Shown one piece after another: positions 2,365 through 64,000 of a DNA stretch of 64,000 nucleotides. Below the pieces are notes generated by a model that worked only from the letters and a program-made list of their open reading frames with translations, was not told where the DNA came from and made no database searches. Numbering within the stretch: the first letter of the stretch is position 1; each line of letters opens with the position of its first letter. The DNA comes from Bacillus multifaciens (GTDB lineage: Bacteria > Bacillota > Bacilli > Bacillales > Bacillaceae_G). A program made the position numbers and the translations under genes. Location of the stretch: positions 1-64,000 of the forward strand of contig NZ_JAVBXD010000005.1 of assembly GCF_030756675.1 (NCBI RefSeq), written 5' to 3'.

Positions 2365-4278
2365 TCACATCACCCGCTTAAACATCTTCTCCAGTTCATA
2401 AGTCGAATGATGCACAAGTATCGGTCTCCCGTGCGGACAAGTATACGGATTCGTTGTTGTTCGCAGTTCTTCTAATAAGGCGAAGATTTGATCGTTCGTT
2501 AAATATTGATTCGCTTTAATCGATGCTTTGCAGCTCATCATAATAGCTGCTTCTTCACGCAGTTTTTTAATATCAACTTTTTTCAGTTTCAATACTTGCT
2601 GCATCATTTCATCGATAATTTCCATCTCTTGTCCTTTTGGGAACCATGTTGGATGTGAGCGGACAATGAATGATTGATGGCCGAATTGTTCTAGGAAGAT
2701 TCCTACTTTTTTCAGTTCTTCTAGTTGCTCTTCAACGCGCAAAAATTCATTTAGCGATAAATCAATTCGGTACGGAACGAGTAATTCTTGTACCTCTGGC
2801 GTTACTTGTCCTACTTTATCACGGAAATATTCATAGTTAATGCGCTCCTGAGCTGCATGCTGGTCAATCATATATAGTCCTTTATCATTTTGGGCGAAAA
2901 TATATGTTCCATGCATTTGCCCAATTGGATACAACGGCGGTAAATCGTTTCCGTTCATTTCGATTTCTTGCACTGCTTCAAGTTCTTCCAATTCAAAATC
3001 TTCTTCATGGTCTTCCCAACCATTCTCTTGCGAAAGCGTTTCTTCTACAATCGGCTTAGATGGTTGCCAATTATTTTCTTCTTTTACAAGAGACTCTGGC
3101 GGCTGCCATTCTTGTTTTGGTGGATTCCAAAGCGGTGGTGATGACTTCGGTTTTTCTTCTTGTTCATCCATTCCACTTGGTAGTACGATAGTTGGCAGCT
3201 CTTTCGGTTTGGCGTGCTCAAACTGAAACTGCTCTTGGACGCTTTCATCCTTTTCTTTTTTCTTCGGTGCAGGGCCAGCATCAGGAATAAGTTGAATCTT
3301 TTTAAATGCAGCTTGTAATGCTTGTTCAATAAGCTGCAATAGTTCCTGTTCTTTACTGAAGCGAACCTCTAGTTTTGCTGGATGAACGTTCACATCGACT
3401 AGCATTGGATCCATTTCAATTGATAAGAAACCAATTGGGTAGCGGCCAACAGGCAATAGCGTATGATAACCTTGTTGCACTGCCTTCATTAAGACATAAT
3501 TCCGAACGTAACGACCATTTACAATCGTTGACATATAGTTACGGGATGCACGCGTTACTTCTGGCAACGTCACATACCCACGAATCGTAAAGTCTAACGA
3601 TTCTGCTTCAATTGGAATTAATTTCTTCGCAACTTGAATGCCGTAAATCGCCGCAAGAACTTGTCTTACATCACCATTTCCTGATGTATGAAGTAGTTTC
3701 TTCTCATTATGAAACAAACGTAAAGAGACTTCTGGGTGCGACAGTGCAATGCGATACACAATGTCGGTAATATTCCCAAGCTCTGTATGAACTGTTTTCA
3801 TATATTTTAAGCGTGCTGGTGTATTAAAAAACAGGTTTTTAACCGTAATATCTGTCCCTTTACGGCTCGCTGTTTTTTCTTGCTTTAAAATTTCCCCGCC
3901 TTTAATGACAAGGTTTGTTCCTGGTACATCCCCTGTACTTGTGATTAACTCTAATTCACTGACAGATGCGATACTCGGTAATGCTTCGCCGCGAAAACCG
4001 AGCGTTCGAATACGAAACAAATCATTTTCATCTTTAATTTTACTTGTCGCATGTCTCTCAAAAGCGACGATACAATCTTCTTCAGCAATGCCATCTCCAT
4101 TATCGATAATGCGAATTTTCGATAATCCAGCTTCTTCTAAGTGGATTTCAATAGATGTACTATTCGCATCGATGGAATTTTCGACAAGTTCTTTTACAAC
4201 CGAAGCAGGACGTTCTACTACTTCCCCTGCCGCAATTAAGTTAGAAAGCTGATCATCGAGTTTGCGAATTTTCCCCAT
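2365..4278 (-). CDS. mutL: DNA mismatch repair protein MutL
   Basis: MutL couples mismatch recognition by MutS to strand removal. In Bacilli it is itself a nicking endonuclease. The N-terminal GHKL ATPase motifs are all visible: [10 protein letters not shown] (near 30), DNGDGI (near 60), RHATSKI, and [13 protein letters not shown] (near 95). After a variable Pro/Glu-rich linker comes the endonuclease domain with [21 protein letters not shown] and CPHGRPI, which bind the metal. The 637-aa length is normal. It starts eight nt after the mutS stop, and its ribosome site overlaps the end of mutS, so the two are translated from one transcript. The gene is intact. Confidence 0.97.
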
Positions 4279-17529: not shown

Positions 17530-19421
17530 ATCGAGTAGGAGGAGGCGATTAACCTCCGACCTCTCACACCACCGTACGTACGGTTCCGTATACGGCGGTT
17601 CAAATTAAGTTTGACGTAGTTGTTCATAACGTAAATACAGACTTCTCAGACCTTGGCAACTCCAATAAAAGTTGCTAAGGCTTCTGTGTAAAATCGGACT
17701 TTTACTTACTCTCCAATAACCCTTTCGAGAGTTTCCCCATTCATATGCCTTTCCTGCTTCAACACCTAATTTCCTTAGATTCTTTATCCGTGTTTTAGGT
17801 CTTTTCCACATCTTCCAAATACATTGACGGAGTCGCCTTTGTATCCACTGGTCTAGTTGTTCAAAGATGCTCTTTGTATCAGCTAGCGCAAAGTATCCGA
17901 GCCAACCAATTAGGTATTGGTTCAGTTTCTTCACCCTATCTTCCATAGAGATACTCCACTTCCGTGACGTTAACTCTCTAATTTTCGCTTTTACACGTTT
18001 CATCGTTTGTTTCGCTAGACGAATTCTCGGATTCTTCTTGCTCCTTGTAAAGGTAAAACCCAAGAACTTTCGATTCCAAGGACGGTCGTACATGGATTTC
18101 TCTTTGCTTACTTTGAGTTTTAATTTCCCTTCAATAAACTTTGTGATTCCTTCCATGATACGTTTCGCCGCTTTGCGTGAGCGAGCAAATATATTACAAT
18201 CGTCTGCGTACCTCACAAAGCGTAGATTTCTTCCTTCCAATTCCTTGTCTAGCTCATCCAACATGATGTTGGATAGAAGCGGGCTTAGTGGGCCGCCTTG
18301 CGGGGTGCCTTCCGTACTTCGCTGATACATTCCACCAATCATAATGCCTGATTGAAGAAATTTACGAATGAGCTTGAGTAATACTCCATCCTTTATTCTT
18401 CGTTCTAGTAAATCCATCATCTTGTCGTGGTTTACCTTGTCAAAGAATTTCTCTAAGTCTATATCAACCACCCATGTATACCCTTCTTGTATATATTCTT
18501 TCGCTTTTCGCACTGCTTGATGTCCCTGTCTATTCGGACGGAAACCGTAGCTACTATCCGAAAAGTTAGGGTCATACATGCGAGTGAGCACTTGGGCAAT
18601 TGCTTGTTGAATGAATCGGTCTCGAACGGTTGGAATACCTAATAACCGAATACCGCCGTCTGGTTTCGGGATTTCGACTCGACGTACTGGTTCCGGTTCG
18701 TAGGTTCCTGTCACAAGGGATTCTCTTACCTGTTGCCAGTGGTCTTTCACATACGGTCGCAGGTTTTGGACCATCATTTTGTCTACACCATGGCTTCCCT
18801 TGTTTCTTTCTACTCGCTTGAGCGCTTGTATTAAGTTGTCTCGTTCTAATATCCAATTCATCAACATACTTACGTTCCTTTCTACGTGAATAAAGAGTTC
18901 TATTTATACCCTTACATACTCAGCCCTCTTGAAGTCCCCCGTGTATTCACCACTTCCTCCTCCAAGTAAGTCCTATCTTCGGATTGTCTGCTTCATCATA
19001 TGTAGTGATAGCCTAGTTCTTATTCTTCCTAATTCGTTCAGCCCTTCCTTGAATTCTCGAGTGTTCAAGTACTATGGCTTCTGCTGACTTCTGATGATTC
19101 AGCCACTCATCACTGAATGGGTTACTAAGTGTACTTAGCTTATTCATCAGACCTCCCCGGGTAAGAATGTATTCTTTCATTCCATGTCCCCACTCCATTT
19201 ACTCTGCATCACCTTTGGCAGTAAGAGTTTTGTCTTGTTATGCAGACTCACTCAGTGATACCTAGCCTTCTATGAAGTTCGTGTTCCTTGGGGCGGAATT
19301 TTGCCGCTGACTTCCTTCAGATTTCACGTCACCATGAACACCCTTGTCTTAAGCTAACCCCTACTACTGCCTTCGTGGCTCGGGACTTTCACCCTAGAGA
19401 ATACACCCATGCCGGGCACAC
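17530..19421 (-). mobile_element. Group IIC intron inserted behind the recA terminator
   Basis: The intron reads 5' to 3' on the minus strand. Its 5' end at 19421 is GTGTGCCCGGCATGGGTGT, the typical bacterial class C start. The 3' end is near 17530, after a domain V hairpin (CCGTATACGG-AACCGTACGTACGG region, 17562-17600) and a domain VI hairpin (GGAGG...CCTCC) ending CTACTCGAT. Length is about 1,890 bp. Domain IV encodes the reverse transcriptase at 17605-18867. Insertion is immediately 3' of the U tract of the recA intrinsic terminator, exactly the target preference known for group IIC introns. The 3' boundary may be off by one or two bases. Confidence 0.9.
17605..18867 (-). CDS. ltrA: Group IIC intron reverse transcriptase/maturase
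   Basis: A 420-aa intron-encoded protein. RT blocks are in order: IPKPDGGIRLLGIPTVRDRF, SYGFRPNRQGHQAV, VVDIDLEKFFDKVNHD, GTPQGGPLSPLLSNIMLDEL, and the catalytic RYADDCNIFARS. The maturase (X) domain follows (RKWSISMEDRVKKLNQYLIG, WKRPKTRIKNLRKLGV). There is no HNH endonuclease domain, as expected for class C proteins that prime on the replication fork or on nascent strands. The start ATG at 18865-18867 has AGGAA upstream. The frame is intact, so the intron may be mobile. It should bind and splice its own RNA. Confidence 0.95.
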   Translation of the reverse strand: MLMNWILERDNLIQALKRVERNKGSHGVDKMMVQNLRPYVKDHWQQVRESLVTGTYEPEPVRRVEIPKPDGGIRLLGIPTVRDRFIQQAIAQVLTRMYDPNFSDSSYGFRPNRQGHQAVRKAKEYIQEGYTWVVDIDLEKFFDKVNHDKMMDLLERRIKDGVLLKLIRKFLQSGIMIGGMYQRSTEGTPQGGPLSPLLSNIMLDELDKELEGRNLRFVRYADDCNIFARSRKAAKRIMEGITKFIEGKLKLKVSKEKSMYDRPWNRKFLGFTFTRSKKNPRIRLAKQTMKRVKAKIRELTSRKWSISMEDRVKKLNQYLIGWLGYFALADTKSIFEQLDQWIQRRLRQCIWKMWKRPKTRIKNLRKLGVEAGKAYEWGNSRKGYWRVSKSPILHRSLSNFYWSCQGLRSLYLRYEQLRQT

Positions 19422-19431
19422 ATAAAAAAAT

Positions 19432-19455
19432 AAAAGACACGAAACCGTGTCTTTT
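19432..19455 (-). terminator. recA terminator, target of the group IIC intron
   Basis: A perfect 10-bp stem (AAAAGACACG 19432-19441 with CGTGTCTTTT 19446-19455), four-nt loop, followed on the minus strand by ATTTTTTTAT and then directly by the intron 5' end at 19421. It overlaps the recA stop codon (19454-19456). Confidence 0.9.
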
Positions 19456-19879
19456 AATCATCAAGAAGAGTCTTATCTTCTCCGTTTCCAGCTGCACCCT
19501 CTTCTCCAATACCATGATGCTCACGAATAAAGAATGCTATTTCATCTGTAATTTCTGGATTTTCTTTTAAGAATTGCTTCGCATTTTCACGACCTTGGCC
19601 TAAACGTTCCTCATTATAAGAATACCAAGCTCCGCTCTTTTGAACGATATCAAGTTCAGAAGACATATCTAAAATTTCGCCTTCTCTTGAGATCCCTTCT
19701 CCGTACATAATATCAACCTCTGCAACGCGGAAAGGAGGCGCTACTTTATTTTTTACTACTTTCACTTTTGTTTTATTACCAACAATATCGTTACCTTGCT
19801 TTAACTGCTCAGCACGACGTACTTCAAGACGCACTGTTGAATAGAATTTCAATGCACGTCCACCTGGAGTTGTTTCTGG
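19454..19879 (-). CDS. recA: RecA recombinase, exon 2 (C-terminal 141 residues)
   Basis: The second exon begins with the Pro codon at 19879 ([20 protein letters not shown]) and continues to LLDD and TAA. It supplies the end of DNA-binding loop L2 and the C-terminal domain. The preceding ATG at 19880-19882 belongs to the intron (its last base is the terminal G), so it is not a start codon. Joined to exon 1 (20208-20816) the product is 344 aa, a normal RecA length, with no residue missing. The intrinsic terminator overlaps its stop codon and carries a group IIC intron behind it. Confidence 0.96.
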
Positions 19880-20207
19880 CATAATTCTATAGATTTTCCA
19901 TCTCTATAGCGCGGACTATCTCTTCATCTCTTTACAGAGAGCCTTGCACTTCCAGCAGGAGCCCATCTTCTGCCGTACCCTACTCAGTTAACTTTAAAAG
20001 TCCTTTTCGGTAGTCTCTACACCTTCTTCATATCATTCTGAAGCTTGGCACGGTATTACCCTATTATTTGGAGGGCTTCACCGTTAGCAGCTATATCGCT
20101 ACACCCTTAGGCAATAAGGTTCACAAGGTTTTTTGAACATGCTATCACTAGCAAGGGAAACCCATAGTAAACTCCTTAATCTAAAACGATTAAGCAACCA
20201 TTTGTTG
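19880..20207 (-). ncRNA. ORF-less group I self-splicing intron in recA
   Basis: The 328-nt insertion lies exactly between the codons for Asn203 and Pro204 of RecA. The upstream exon ends in U (GGAAAT) and the intron ends in G (GAATTATG), the boundary rules of group I introns. Internal signals on the minus strand fit the core: GAGACTA (about 20012-20018) can pair with TAGTCC (about 19914-19919) as P7, and AATACCGTGCCAAGC (about 20044-20058) resembles the conserved core. It has no reading frame for a homing endonuclease. I recall a published group I intron of about this size at recA in B. anthracis. The splice sites are inferred from the protein. Confidence 0.92.
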
Positions 20208-20816
20208 ATTTCCAAACATTACCCCAACTTTTTCACGAATTTGGTTAATGAAAATGGCGATTGTTTTTGACTTGTTAATCGCACCAGATAATTTACGAAG
20301 AGCTTGTGACATTAAACGTGCTTGTAAACCGACGTGAGAGTCACCCATTTCTCCTTCAATCTCTGCTTTTGGAACAAGTGCTGCTACCGAGTCAATAACA
20401 ATAATATCAACTGCACCGCTTCGTACTAATGCTTCAGCAATTTCAAGCCCTTGTTCTCCTGTATCTGGTTGAGATAATAATAATTCATCAATGTTAACAC
20501 CTAGTTTTTGTGCATATACAGGATCCATTGCATGTTCCGCATCAATAAATGCCGCTTGTCCGCCTTGACGCTGTACCTCTGCAATCGCATGTAAAGAAAC
20601 GGTTGTTTTACCTGAACTTTCAGGTCCATAAATTTCAATAATACGGCCTCGTGGATAACCACCAACTCCAAGGGCAACATCAAGTGCCAATGAACCACTT
20701 GATACAGTAGAAATCTTACGTTCCGCTTGCTCTCCTAGTTTCATAATTGAGCCTTTACCGAATTGTTTTTCTATTTGTTTTAACGCCATATCTAATGCCG
20801 CTTGACGATCACTCAT
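20208..20816 (-). CDS. recA: RecA recombinase, exon 1 (N-terminal 203 residues)
   Basis: RecA forms the ATP-dependent filament for homologous recombination and triggers LexA cleavage in the SOS response. Exon 1 carries the start ([20 protein letters not shown]), Walker A GPESSGKT (66-73), Walker [13 protein letters not shown] (about 140-150), and loop L2 up to GVMFGN. Reading on into the intron adds QQMVA and a stop, so unspliced RNA would give a truncated 208-aa protein lacking most of L2. ATG 20814-20816 has AGGAGG upstream. A SigA promoter and an SOS box precede it, so transcription is damage-inducible. Confidence 0.96.
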
Positions 20817-34263: not shown

Positions 34264-34402
34264 TGTATTGACACTTTTTCCTCATAGTCTAGCAAATTTA
34301 TGGTTGCTAGGTAGAAACTTATGGACCTTATTACCAAGATTATATGAGGTTTATTTTGATTTCGAAGTAATCGTACCATTTGAAATGATTACTGTCAATA
34401 CA
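34264..34402. promoter_or_regulatory. Branched inverted-repeat region with an embedded promoter
   Basis: The outer arms TGTATTGACA (34264-34273) and TGTCAATACA (34393-34402) are perfect. Nested inside are CCTCATA/TATGAGG (34280-34286, 34343-34349), CTAGCAA/TTGCTAG (34289-34295, 34304-34310) and AGTAATC/GATTACT (34366-34372, 34387-34393). The minus strand shows TTGACA (34394-34399), 17 bp, then TACGAT, a plausible promoter toward ymfC. No coding frame is present between ymfC and spoIIIE. Confidence 0.5.
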
Positions 34403-58437: not shown

Positions 58438-59843
58438 TCAGAACAGGGATAACTGGTTTTGATCTGGTAGTTCTCCTAAACAACCTTGACTATCTAAATA
58501 CTCAATAATTGTTTTGGAAATCTTACTGCGCTGTTGTAAATCCTCTTTCGATAAAAACTCGCCATTTTCACGTGCTGCTACAATACTTAATGCCGCATTT
58601 GTACCAAGACCAGGTATTGCATTAAATGGTGGAATCAATGTATTTCCATCAATAATAAAGTCAGTTGCACTAGAGCGATATAAATCAACCTTTTGGAATG
58701 AGTAACCACGTTCGCACATTTCAAGTGTCATTTCTAATACTGTTAATAAGCTTTTCTCTTTCGGCGATGCATCTAATCCTTTTTGCGCAATTTCATCAAT
58801 TTTAACGCGGATAGATGCTGAACCTTTAGCCATCGCCTCTAAATCAAAATCATCGGCACGAACTGTGAAATATGCCGCGTAGAATAAAAGCGCAAAATGC
58901 ACTTTGAAATACGCAATGCGCACAGCCATGAGTACATATGCTGCCGCATGGGCCTTTGGGAACATATACTTAATCTTTTTACATGATTCAATATACCATC
59001 CCGGCACATTATTATTGCGCATTTCCTCTTCCCACTCTGGAGGTACACCTTTCCCTTTACGTACAGATTCCATAATTTTAAACGCTAAAGATGGTTCTAA
59101 ACCTTGGTATATTAAATACACCATAATGTCATCACGACAACCGATTACTTCACTCAGTGTACATGTGCCATCATAAATGAGTTCATTTGCATTTCCAAGC
59201 CATACATCTGTACCGTGAGATAGTCCAGAAATTTGGACAAGCTCTGAAAATGTCGTCGGCTTCGTTTCCTCTAACATTTGGCGAACGAATTTTGTACCAA
59301 ATTCCGGGATACCAAGTGTACCTGTTTTACAGTTAATTTGTTCTTCTGTTACGCCAAGTGATTCTGTACCTGAGAAAATTTTCATTACTTCTGGATCATC
59401 AGTTGGAATCGTCTTCGGATCCACTCCACTTAAATCTTGAAGCATACGAATCACTGTCGGATCATCGTGTCCAAGTATATCAAGTTTTAATAAGTTATCA
59501 TGAATAGAATGGAAATCAAAATGTGTAGTTCTCCATTCTGCCTCTAAAGAATCTGCTGGATATTGGATCGGTGTAAAATCAAAGACATCCATGTAATCCG
59601 GCACTACGATAATACCACCTGGATGTTGCCCTGTCGTTCTCTTAACACCAGTACACCCTGATACAAGACGATCTACCTCTGCTCCTCGTATCGTTAAATT
59701 ATGGTCTGAAGCATAGCCTTTCACATAACCATACGCGGTCTTTTCGGCAACGGTGCCTATTGTTCCAGCACGATATACATTATCTTCACCGAACAGTACT
59801 TTCGTATAGTTATGGGCACGAGGTTGGTATTCTCCTGAGAAGT
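58438..59843 (-). CDS. polC: DNA polymerase III PolC, exon 2 (C-terminal part)
   Basis: PolC is the main replicative polymerase of low-GC Gram-positives. Exon 2 starts at 59843 with the last two bases of an Asn codon and continues [20 protein letters not shown], then the palm, fingers and thumb regions ([40 protein letters not shown]). It ends in the beta-clamp motif QLSLF. An in-frame GTG at 59889 and the following 15 codons belong to the intron and are not the true start. Joined to exon 1 at 62509 the sequence PDIDLNFSGEYQ is restored without any gain or loss. Confidence 0.95.
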
Positions 59844-62508
59844 ATAGTGATAGGTAAGCATTTGATATTATCTCCAGCTTTTCCCCCACTCCACACCGTG
59901 CGTGAGGCTTTCACACTCACACGGCGTTCCATCGTTAACTCTGTCGAAGTTTATAAGCTAAGTTTTGGATTTCCTACTTCCGTTCTCAGCTTATTTAATT
60001 TGTTTAAAGCTTTCTTTTCAAACTTGGCTAACATTTTTTTGTAATCTTTATTTGCAAGAGGGTCTTTATTATGAATTAACATATGATATTTCTTATTGAT
60101 AATAATTAAGTTATCATATTCATCACTACCGCCTTGAGCTGTTGAATTGATGTGGTGACATATAGCATTATGAGGAGTCAATCGTTCCCCTGTTATTCCA
60201 CAACATCCTTTTTGCACAACATATTTACTTAAGCGGTTGTTTTCATACAGAACACTTTTTGCTTTATATATTCCTTTACGAAACATTTCAATTTCCCGCA
60301 CAGACACACGCTTTATCTCTTTATGAATTGATGCCCTATCCTTTTCATTATAAACGGAGAAGTTAGGATCTCTTTGACCTCGTATATCATGTCGAATTGC
60401 TTCAATAGGATAGACCAGTAATCCATTACTTTTAAACCTTGGACAATTATAATCTCCATAGAATTTATCAATGATATTATTCGTTTCCTTTGTATAAACA
60501 AAGATGTTTCTGAACATCAATGATTTTATATTCGGATGAATTTTATGTCTTATCTCATTAAAATCTTGAGAAATTCTGGTCGCAATTTTGTAGTAGTTAT
60601 GCAATCCAAGAATGTTCGAATTAAAATTCATCACTTTTTCTGGAGTGGGACTTTTCCTCATCTTAACGAGTTGATGGCGGATAACGCCTAATACCTTCTC
60701 TTTTGCTTTCGGGTCCATCTTTGAGTTTACGATATAGCCTGTTTTGGCATTTCCTTTTTGAACGGCTCTAAAACGAATCCCTAAAAAGTCTGTACCGTTT
60801 TTCCGTAAGTTTGTGATTTTACTTTTTTCTTCACTTATCTCAAGACCTAATCTTTCCTTAAGCCATGTTTCAACCGCTATTTTAATCTTTCTAGCGTTTT
60901 CGTAGGAATTTGTGAAGATTTTAAAGTCATCCGCATATCTTACTAAATACATTGGTTTTAACCTTGTCTTTTTAAGTGCATCCGTTTTATTACGTTTCAA
61001 TTTGTAAGGCACTCTCGTCGGTTTTGTTTCCCATTGGTTTGACACCCACCAATCAAGTTCATTTAATACAACATTGGCTAGCAATGGAGATAAAATACCA
61101 CCTTGAGGAGTCCCTTTAACAGGAATACCTTCACCTGTAATTTCCGCCTTCAGCATTTTTTTGATGATGGATAAAACACTTTTGTCCCGTATTCCAATTG
61201 TCCATAGCTGCCTCATTAACTTTTTATGATTAACGTTATCAAAGAAACCTTTAATATCTATGTCCACTACAAAATGTTGGTGACTGTGATTGACCATATG
61301 ATAACACCTAGCTAAAGCGTCATGAGTGCTTCGTTTTGGTCGAAAACCATAGCTTTGTGGATGAAACTTCCCTTCAACAATCGGTTCCAAAACTTGCAGG
61401 AACATTTGCTGAATTAATCGGTCTTCAATCGTTGGAATCCCTAAAGGTCGCATTTTCCCGTTTGGCTTTGGTATAAACACACGTCTTACTGTGTGTGGCA
61501 TGTAGTTTTCCAATCTCTTCTTCGTTAATCTGATTAGCTTGTCAGCATCTATTTTATTAAGATGTTTCATTGTGTGTCCATTTGTACCTTTCGTTTTACT
61601 CCCCGTGTTGCTTTTTAAATTACGAAAGGCTAATCGAATGTTTTCTTCAGAAACAATCAGCTCATAAATGTTTTTGAAATATCGACCCTTTTTGCTCTCT
61701 TCATAAAGATTATCAAAAGTTGATTGTAAGCCAAAATATTCATTGTTTCTTAATTTTTGAATCATTAAGTCAGCCAACTAATCACTTCCTTATGAAGTTT
61801 TCGTTTCTCTTTTGTCATACACGAATCTGACTTTTGTAGGTTTTGTTTCGACGTTAACGACTTGTGCCCTTCCCTCTGAAATGTTTTTATCCTCCGACTT
61901 ATTGGTTATTCAGTCATCTTCAGCATTTCATTAAGCGGTACTACGGCACTACTGCCACTTTCGTAAAATGTGTTATAGCATTTGCCTTTCCACATACCAT
62001 CGTCATCGAAGTGCAACCTTCTCTTATGTCGAAAGCTTCACACGTTCCACTATTCCTATCTGTACATAATTCCCTTAGGTTCCCCCTAAATTCCGCCAAG
62101 CTTGACTGTGCCTGTAACACAGTATGGATTTTCATAACCAAACGTTTACTCATCCACACTTGGAAGTCCTCTTTGGACCCCGTTACATTTCTGTAACGTG
62201 ATATTCTCGAAAAGTCAGTCGAGGGTTCGTCCCAGTGATTCTACTGATTCTAACCATAGGAATTTTATAGACACCAGACCTATCATTCACAGAAGGTTTC
62301 TACCTCCCTTTCCTCGTCTTTACGTTAGGGTTAACTTCAGCCTACTTTAACGGGCTTCAAACGATGTTGATGTTTGCAATATCGCTATCGCTTGCCGTAG
62401 CTTCAGTGAGTGTGTTTCAGGACGTTACCCCATCATTCCACACTTTGGAATAGCAGTTCTACTAGCAGATGCTAGTGCTTAACCTTTTCAGTTAAGAACG
62501 TGTCGCAC
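59844..62508 (-). mobile_element. Group II intron interrupting polC
   Basis: The 2,665-bp intron reads on the minus strand from GTGCGACACG (62508 downward) to CCTATCACTAT (59844). It has the expected GUGYG start and AY end. Domains I-III lie in 61778-62508, domain IV holds the protein gene 59951-61777, and a domain V-like hairpin (CGCCGTGTGA...CACGCACGG, about 59885-59920) precedes the 3' end. Insertion is after the first base of an Asn codon of the PolC active-site motif. Splicing at these sites restores the frame, and the intact maturase supports active splicing. The subclass is not assigned. Confidence 0.92.
59951..61777 (-). CDS. ltrA: Group II intron-encoded reverse transcriptase/maturase/HNH endonuclease
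   Basis: A 608-aa LtrA-like protein. RT blocks: FIPKPNGKMRPLGIPTIEDR, SYGFRPKRSTHDALARCYHM, FVVDIDIKGFFDNVNHKKLM, KGTPQGGILSPLLANVVLNE and catalytic YLVRYADDFKIFTNS. The maturase X domain follows (LGLHNYYKIATRISQDFNEI). The C-terminal HNH endonuclease shows CCGITGERLTPHNAICHHIN and YDNLIIINKKYHMLIH, with paired Cys and His. All domains required for splicing and retrohoming are present and uninterrupted. It is unlike the 420-aa protein of the other group II intron in the window. Confidence 0.95.
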   Translation of the reverse strand: MADLMIQKLRNNEYFGLQSTFDNLYEESKKGRYFKNIYELIVSEENIRLAFRNLKSNTGSKTKGTNGHTMKHLNKIDADKLIRLTKKRLENYMPHTVRRVFIPKPNGKMRPLGIPTIEDRLIQQMFLQVLEPIVEGKFHPQSYGFRPKRSTHDALARCYHMVNHSHQHFVVDIDIKGFFDNVNHKKLMRQLWTIGIRDKSVLSIIKKMLKAEITGEGIPVKGTPQGGILSPLLANVVLNELDWWVSNQWETKPTRVPYKLKRNKTDALKKTRLKPMYLVRYADDFKIFTNSYENARKIKIAVETWLKERLGLEISEEKSKITNLRKNGTDFLGIRFRAVQKGNAKTGYIVNSKMDPKAKEKVLGVIRHQLVKMRKSPTPEKVMNFNSNILGLHNYYKIATRISQDFNEIRHKIHPNIKSLMFRNIFVYTKETNNIIDKFYGDYNCPRFKSNGLLVYPIEAIRHDIRGQRDPNFSVYNEKDRASIHKEIKRVSVREIEMFRKGIYKAKSVLYENNRLSKYVVQKGCCGITGERLTPHNAICHHINSTAQGGSDEYDNLIIINKKYHMLIHNKDPLANKDYKKMLAKFEKKALNKLNKLRTEVGNPKLSL

Positions 62509-64000
62509 TCAAATCAATATCAGGAACCTTATCTCCTTTAAAACCAAGGAACGTTTCGAACGGAATATCATGACCGTCTTTTTTATATGCAGTTCCACAA
62601 TTGGGACAATCTTTATCAGGTAAATCAAATCCCGAACCGACCGAACCATCATTAAAGAACTGAGATTGCTTACAATTTGGACAAACGTAATGCGGCGGCA
62701 AAGGATTTACCTCTGTAATTTCCATCATTGTCGCAACAAACGATGATCCAACTGAACCACGTGAACCAACAAGATAGCCATCAATAAGTGATTTCTTTAC
62801 AAGCTTATGCGAAATCAAATAAATAACAGCAAATCCATGTCCAATAATACTTTTCAATTCTTTTTCCAGGCGTGCTTCTACAATTTCTGGAAGTTCATCT
62901 CCGTAAATACTTCGCGCCATTTCGTAACTCATATCACGCGTTTCATCATCTGCACCTTCAATTTTTGGAGTATAAAGGTCATCTTTTACAGGCTTTACTT
63001 CACCGATCATCGATGCGACTTTTTGCGTATTTGTTACAACAATTTCTTTTGCTTTTTCTTCGCCTAAGAAAGAGAAGCATTCTAACATTTCATCTGTTGT
63101 TCGGAAATACACAGGTGGCAATGAATGACGATTTAATGGATTCGCTCCGCCTTGCGAACTCACTAAAATTTTCCGATACATTGCATCTTCTGGATTTAAA
63201 TAATGAACATTTCCTGTTCCAACAACAGGCTTATCTAACGTTTCACCTAACTTTACTAAGTTAGAAATAATTGTTTTTAATTGACCCTCATCACGAACGA
63301 GTTCAAGCTCTACCAAATGTCGCAACACTTCTGGCGGCATGACCTCAATGTAATCATAAAACTGAGCAATTTCCTCTACTTCTTCTGGTGCCTTTTGCAT
63401 CATCGCTTCAAATACTTCACCTTTATCGCAAGCTGTACCGACCAAAATACCTTCGCGATACTTCTTTAATAAAGAACGCGGAATACGAGGTACACGGTAG
63501 AAATATTGAAGATGCGCGTAAGAAACAAGTTTATATAAATTTTTCAATCCTTCATCCGACGTTGCAAGAAGGGTCACATGACTTGGACGTCCACGTTTAT
63601 ACGCATCTCCTTGTCCCATACTGTCATTTAACTGATCGTGATATTCAAAGCCTTTTTCAATTACATTTTTCAGCATCTTCACAAGCAAATATCCAGTTGC
63701 TTCTGTATCATAAATCGCACGGTGATGTTGTGTTAATTCGATGTCAAGCTTTTTACATAACGTATTTAAACGATGGTTTTTCATCTCTGGAAATAAGAAA
63801 CGAGCCAATTCTAACGTATCGATAACTGGGTTTTTCGTTTTTTCTAATCCACTTTTCTTAAATCCAACGTTTAAAAATCCCATATCAAAGCTTGCATTAT
63901 GAGCAACAAGTGTATGATTCCCAATCCACTGTTCAAACTTTTTAAAGACTTCTTCTACTTCCGGTGCATCCGTAAGCATATCATCTGTAATACCCGTTAA
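62509..64000 (-). CDS. polC: DNA polymerase III PolC, exon 1 (partial, runs off the window)
   Basis: The frame is open to the window edge ([20 protein letters not shown]), so the visible Met at 63979 is not the start. The 3'-5' exonuclease domain shows [20 protein letters not shown] and [19 protein letters not shown]. The PHP part follows ([33 protein letters not shown]). A zinc-finger region comes next ([10 protein letters not shown], then [20 protein letters not shown]). The exon ends with VPDIDL plus the first base of the next codon at 62509. Reading into the intron adds SATRS and a stop. About 497 codons are in the window. Confidence 0.95.

Follow-up and report, generated by a model that had tools for sequence, protein, structure and literature searches.

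How does a cell keep an essential replication gene at work when a group II intron sits within the codons for its active site? This question is raised by polC in the window, by which we mean the whole stretch of 64,000 nt of Bacillus multifaciens DNA that was analyzed. PolC is essential, and two Asp residues of the interrupted motif, PDIDL-N-FSGEYQ, bind catalytic metal. Read along the minus strand, exon 1 terminates with ...GATATTGATTTGA at 62509, the intron of 2,665 nt extends from GTGCGACACG (62508) to ...CACTAT (59844), and exon 2 opens with ACTTCTCAGGAG at 59843 (Table 1). The split point lies inside the Asn codon, which is completed by A from the first and AC from the second exon, and the predicted exon joining restores PDIDLNFSGEYQ. 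The two exons match positions 476-976 and 978-1444 of the PolC profile NF001688, the split residue being the sole gap, and the product of exon 1 can be aligned to a PDB PolC chain as far as PDIDL. The 5' part of polC falls outside the window, the gene start not being within the 64,000 nt. An earlier note on this DNA, made from the sequence alone, had claimed a group II intron with exact borders in the Asn codon and an exact restoration of the reading frame. Exon reading and the ends of the Rfam matches confirm the borders to the base, and the frame is restored as claimed, with NF001688 losing only the split residue. A chance origin of the intron call is excluded because 31 other genomes carry the same intron at precisely this base.

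Table 1. Coordinates of the polC exons, the intron and its parts in the window
Feature	Position	Strand	Basis
polC exon 1 (3' part; ends with PDIDL and the first base of the Asn codon)	62509..64000	-	sequence, PolC profile, PDB alignment
Group II intron GTGCGAC...CACTAT, 2,665 nt	59844..62508	-	border reading, Rfam
polC exon 2 (opens with the remaining AC of the Asn codon; 467 aa, then stop)	58438..59843	-	ORF translation, PolC profile
Protein encoded in the intron (608 aa; RT with YADD, maturase region, HNH-like C-terminus)	59951..61777	-	translation, TIGR04416, Pfam
Part of ribozyme domains D1-D4	62264..62461	-	RF02004, 154.1 bits, E 2.3e-34
Domains D5 (CGC triad, from sequence) and D6	59844..59929	-	RF00029, 52.4 bits
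Predicted branch-point A, unpaired within D6, 8 nt from the intron's 3' end	59851	-	consensus structure
Candidate EBS2, intron nt 305-309, AUAUC, for exon -13 to -9	62200..62204	-	pairs in 32/32 introns
Candidate IBS2, exon positions -9 to -13	62517..62521	-	pairing with candidate EBS2
Candidate EBS1, intron nt 347-351, CAAGU, for exon -2 to -6	62158..62162	-	pairing; other offsets score higher

Does the intron retain the structure of a ribozyme? A covariance-model check, proposed in the earlier note, yields matches above the gathering score at both ends of the intron, and the RF00029 match stops on the proposed 3' splice site. Both RF02004 and RF00029 were also present in all 21 loci scanned among the 31 other occupied ones. 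TTACCTAT followed by six bases ending in AT forms the 3' border in 32/32 introns, and this border was not used in finding them. The start GTG[CT]G, likewise present in 32/32, was part of the search pattern, and conservation of the 5' border is therefore by construction, as occupied sites were found via the exact 5' border pattern. A consensus structure for the first 600 nt of the 32 introns contains 158 pairs with 99.1% of the cells paired and 89 pairs changed on both sides, and the D5-D6 consensus, made from 26 distinct rows, contains 28 pairs, 100% paired, 10 of which have changes on both sides. Four basal pairs of the predicted D6 helix appear to change on both sides. The consensus energies of -145.9 for the 5' 600 nt and -30.8 for D5-D6 compare to averages of -30.0 and -6.3 for 20 column shuffles, which constitute a weak control, the consensus structure being predicted from the same alignment that was scored. 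The covarying pairs of this predicted structure indicate that the ribozyme of the polC intron is under selection. As to pairing with the exon, the candidate EBS2 is the sole offset of 506 that pairs in 32/32 introns with exon positions -9 to -13, a match of 5 bp to an exon segment that was chosen after several were tried. When the exon segment is taken from -8 to -13, full pairing is reached in 14/32 introns by the best offset, with which a second one ties. At its middle base the candidate EBS2 has A in three introns, which all face GAT; the remaining introns have G there and face GAT or GAC.

The protein encoded within the intron of the window scores 366.4 bits against TIGR04416, the model of group II reverse transcriptase/maturases (cut-off 300), and 148.9 bits against Pfam RVT_1. 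Its best match in the PDB is 6me0, labelled maturase reverse transcriptase, which we take to be from T. elongatus. The Pfam scan of the protein detected neither GIIM nor any HNH family at an E value of 0.001 or better; YADD and HNH-type residues are visible in the translation, and residues 524-594 match the IscB model weakly (22.8 bits, below the cut-off of 175), presumably in the HNH part of this model. The frame starts with TTG behind a Shine-Dalgarno-like AAGGAAGTGATTAG, which is common to the relatives keeping that start. Directly before the TTG, the window and nearly all of these relatives read ...GTGATTAG, and the locus L094 differs with ...GTGATTAA. The uninterrupted frame of 608 aa and the TIGR04416 score bear out the intact RT/maturase/HNH protein described in the earlier note, the end being HNH-like by its residues.

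How widespread is this intron, and is it bound to this one site? A protein scan of genome contigs found 65 loci. The 15 closest, with 69-94% protein identity, are all located at the same polC base, in hosts of the genera Bacillus, Priestia, Domibacillus, Mesobacillus, Lysinibacillus, Metasolibacillus and Kurthia, and in the remaining 50, with at most 63% identity and some of them short contigs, neither of the flanking polC motifs was seen on the strand that was read. Pattern surveys added 16 occupied genomes, giving a total of 31 besides the window, and both borders were read in each. In one order, 21 of 261 genomes matched the pattern and 20 of 261 were verified as occupied; L101 (genome G391) is a chance pattern match with no intron after the pattern and was excluded from all intron counts. 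In a second order 6 of 397 evenly drawn genomes were occupied, and in one family at least 5 of 193 (G001, G009, G014, G026 and G190), the pattern that covers both states matching in 191 of these 193. Introns with variant borders escape an exact pattern, and each of these occupancy figures is therefore a minimum. The occupied-site pattern is absent from most genomes surveyed, and PDIDLNFSGEYQ is uninterrupted in each of eleven empty-site genomes that were read. In addition, 23 genomes, 22 of them occupied and the other being G391, were searched with the intron protein, and among the matches listed none outside polC reached 60% identity. Comparison of these loci indicates that the intron of the window belongs to a polC-homing lineage, found here only at active-site codons of polC.

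The both-state pattern also bears on whether occupied cells hold a second gene to fall back on. It matches once, and occupied, in 31/31 other occupied genomes, and no second, empty polC was detected in them with this exact pattern, which a diverged copy could escape. The earlier note had held that growth must depend on splicing and had named a second intact polC as the finding that would speak against it. The comparison of these 31 other genomes supports such a dependence, and dependence of host growth on polC splicing is strongly implied by the sequences.

What happens to the intron protein over time? Fifteen of the 32 introns, the window included, encode a full-length protein of 607-608 aa. 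Five introns are of full length with a broken frame, three are partly deleted (1,265-1,674 nt) and nine are ORF-less (767-921 nt). The protein is accordingly broken or missing in 17 of the 31 relatives, a count that includes broken frames in draft assemblies, some of which may be sequencing errors, and the 3' border and the RNA pairing are kept. Several independent losses of the protein are likely because the deletions in the ORF-less introns end at different places, those of L098 and L100 being alike. In a structure derived from the 15 intact introns only, the pairs retained number 183-192 of 189-193 in the ORF-less introns, the lowest value being that of the very divergent L104, and 189-193 of 192-193 in the intact ones. 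Where pairs differ from those of the nearest intact intron, 86 of 101 are still pairable in the ORF-less introns, L104 set aside and the other eight taken together, and 209 of 228 by the same measure among intact introns; a slight relaxation of ribozyme pairing in the ORF-less introns is possible. The Rfam scores of the nine ORF-less introns fall inside the range of the seven intact ones that were scanned. The flanking polC exons are open, as far as they were fetched, in 30 of 32 cases, L094 and L104 having apparent frameshifts. Extra introns, suspected in these two loci from early stops, were rejected, as tblastn found near-continuous PolC with apparent frameshifts. Two further observations concern these loci. 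The partly deleted polC intron of L091 contains a Bacillaceae-1 RNA at 3532-3602 (RF01690, 64.2 bits), and more RF01690 matches are found in the polC loci L095, L098, L099, L100 and L103. The intron of L104 is the most divergent, 32% from its nearest intact intron, and its host genome of 3.8 Mb, G026, has 49 matches to the group II RT family and 36 D5-D6 matches.

One host stands at the end of this series. In G216 the polC intron is ORF-less (847 nt), and the assembly gave no match to the intron protein (E 1e-10), to TIGR04416 (1e-5) or to RVT_1 (0.01). The D5-D6 of its polC intron is the only RF00029 match above the gathering score, the second one scoring 33.5, with 150 of 245 candidates scored. 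The other 11 hosts of ORF-less or partly deleted introns each hold some group II RT gene, and a maturase may possibly act there in trans. Whether we see a bacterial case of a mobile retroelement becoming obligate and splicing-only within an essential replication gene seems to us evenly balanced. If this were true, the polC mRNA of G216 would be spliced without a maturase, either by the RNA alone or with the help of host proteins as in organelles, and the course from empty site through invasion and decay to protein-free retention could be compared across living species.

Could the intron instead serve the host as a control element? The earlier note had proposed a brake on replication, with polC splicing answering to temperature, Mg or the level of maturase. 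An unspliced transcript would indeed yield a truncated PolC, exon 1 of the window reading just 5 codons into the intron, and conditional splicing is described, in passages of two papers, for inteins in the mycobacterial replicative helicase DnaB (PMC6195587, PMC7360933). However, occupancy is sporadic in both orders surveyed (20/261 and 6/397), and loss or breakage of the maturase in 17/31 relatives argues against a conserved maturase-based control. Nothing seen in the sequences analyzed points to regulated splicing, and as protein decay and sporadic occupancy suit a selfish element better, we consider a regulatory intron unlikely and do not retain the proposed brake.

Somewhat less likely still is an old intron that was inherited vertically and lost many times, and that is not a mobile element. 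Host and intron do agree in the Lysinibacillus set L003, L004, L091 and L095 and likewise in L098, L099 and L100, and vertical descent following arrival is likely in some lineages. In contrast, the intron proteins of Kurthia huakuii (L006) and K. gibsonii (L012) are identical at 192/192 fourfold sites and their ribozymes are 99.7% identical, whereas the polC exons of the same two species have a protein identity of 79-89% and agree at 39-41% of the fourfold sites. Conversely, the sister hosts L008 and L011, with a PolC identity of 97-99%, hold intron proteins that are just 74% identical. The window and Priestia abyssalis agree at 74% of fourfold sites in the intron protein and at 32-35% in the exons. 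Moreover, the ribozyme tree and the PolC tree appear to conflict, for example in the two Domibacillus species, which carry introns from different clades. In the Kurthia pair, exon identity is 82% and 80% over the 50 nt that flank the intron on each side, no higher than farther away, and local exon conversion was rejected, as identity beside the junction was not raised in the four pairs looked at. Judged from these identities, purely vertical descent is contradicted for several pairs, and the intron has evidently passed between species without the flanking exon. Precise insertion into a polC already present, such as retrohoming would produce, agrees with this pattern better than an exchange of polC alleles. 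As to a transfer vehicle, no match of at least 60% identity was found among 72,556 plasmid records or 50,697 phage records, and no match in IMG/VR was confirmed. It is very improbable, finally, that the intron stays unspliced and PolC functions as two polypeptides, for which an in-frame GTG at 59889 in the window would give a 483-aa ORF across exon 2: such split expression was rejected because 9 of 32 introns have no ATG, GTG or TTG between the last stop and exon 2, the places of the start differ in the others, the covarying ribozyme pairs would be left unexplained and the split would fall beside the presumed catalytic Asp residues.

With considerable confidence we thus read the intron of the window as an intact and probably mobile member of a selfish retrohoming lineage that is specialized on the DNA encoding the PolC active site and is decaying towards a splicing-only form. 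Splicing in vivo, retrohoming as the mechanism and growth dependence on splicing are what we infer from comparing genomes. On this reading, the intron RNA would splice from the polC transcript aided by its own maturase, restoring PDIDLNFSGEYQ so that the host stays alive. The spliced RNA-protein complex would then recognize an intron-free polC through EBS/IBS pairing and through its protein and copy itself in. Such a target would be available in nearly every related genome, because it encodes invariant active-site residues. Between arrivals the protein would decay and the ribozyme be retained, as it cannot decay while the host needs spliced polC, and some lineages would end ORF-less and splicing-only.

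The window holds further elements of this kind. Its recA is also split (19454-20816, minus strand), with exon 1 in the ORF at 20190-20816 and exon 2 in the ORF at 19454-19882, and a group I intron match (RF00028) lies at 19887-20132, its 35.1 bits (E 7.2e-7) being below the gathering score of 50. A second group II intron is located at 17530-19338 (minus strand) between recA and an rny-like gene and encodes a 420-aa RT/maturase, for which profile scans gave no endonuclease match. Three predicted self-splicing introns are hence found inside 45 kb of the window. A purine riboswitch is present at 34265-34367 (minus strand, 79.1 bits). Regarding the host, DapA of the window is about 89% identical, counted from the alignment, to its best PDB chain 3hij, which we take to be from B. 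anthracis. The C-terminal part of PolC is at most 88% identical to 41 others compared, and polC exon 2 reaches a best identity of 78% among 26 genomes of one order compared, most of them at least 5 Mb in size. Membership of the B. cereus group, implied in the earlier note, is not confirmed by these identities.

Why does such a lineage matter? In it nature has replicated invasion, decay and the loss of the splicing protein, so that the way in which a group II intron comes to depend on its host, which models of spliceosome origin include as a step, becomes testable in culturable Bacilli. The lineage also carries a warning for annotation, as polC in occupied genomes resembles two broken genes and is probably functional. 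According to sections of the literature, bacterial group II introns are mostly found outside housekeeping genes and are uncommon in essential genes (PMC4424553), or are virtually never found in housekeeping genes, for which a selection-driven extinction was proposed (PMC3522654). A literature search, mainly of openly licensed papers, gave among the matches listed none on a group II intron with polC as host.

How, then, does the polC intron compare with known systems? The portion of PMC3522654 that discusses Chee and Takami (2005) describes the recA gene of Geobacillus kaustophilus as host to a group II intron. On that description both introns are of group II and interrupt an essential gene of DNA maintenance in a relative of Bacillus, and the polC lineage differs in the gene, in holding one site across several genera and in repeated protein loss. 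In Bacillus, recA and nrdE are reported to carry group I introns (excerpts of PMC3984707). By that account these are self-splicing and reside in essential DNA genes like the polC intron, but they differ from it in ribozyme class and homing mechanism. Ll.LtrB of Lactococcus lactis, which is inserted in the relaxase gene of a conjugative plasmid, is like the polC intron a mobile-type group II intron with its own protein; part of PMC6003770 states that such introns are seldom found in housekeeping genes, a rarity to which the polC lineage would be an exception. The TeI4 introns of Thermosynechococcus elongatus, as treated in part of PMC2882425, comprise ORF-containing and ORF-less relatives, with TeI4h in an essential tRNA gene, and to that extent share with the polC introns both kinds of relatives and an essential host gene. 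Per the same extract, it is inside a single genome that TeI4 copies multiply, and the proposal is made that driver proteins work on behalf of several introns (PMC2882425). The polC introns are unlike TeI4 in that no second match of at least 60% identity appeared among the matches listed in 22 occupied genomes, and in G216, in which no RT was found. In Azotobacter the essential gene groEL hosts a group II intron, located at the stop codon. It splits no active-site motif, whereas the polC intron does. Essential bacterial genes are thus already known as hosts of group II introns, and what seems new here is a range limited to polC together with protein-free derivatives.
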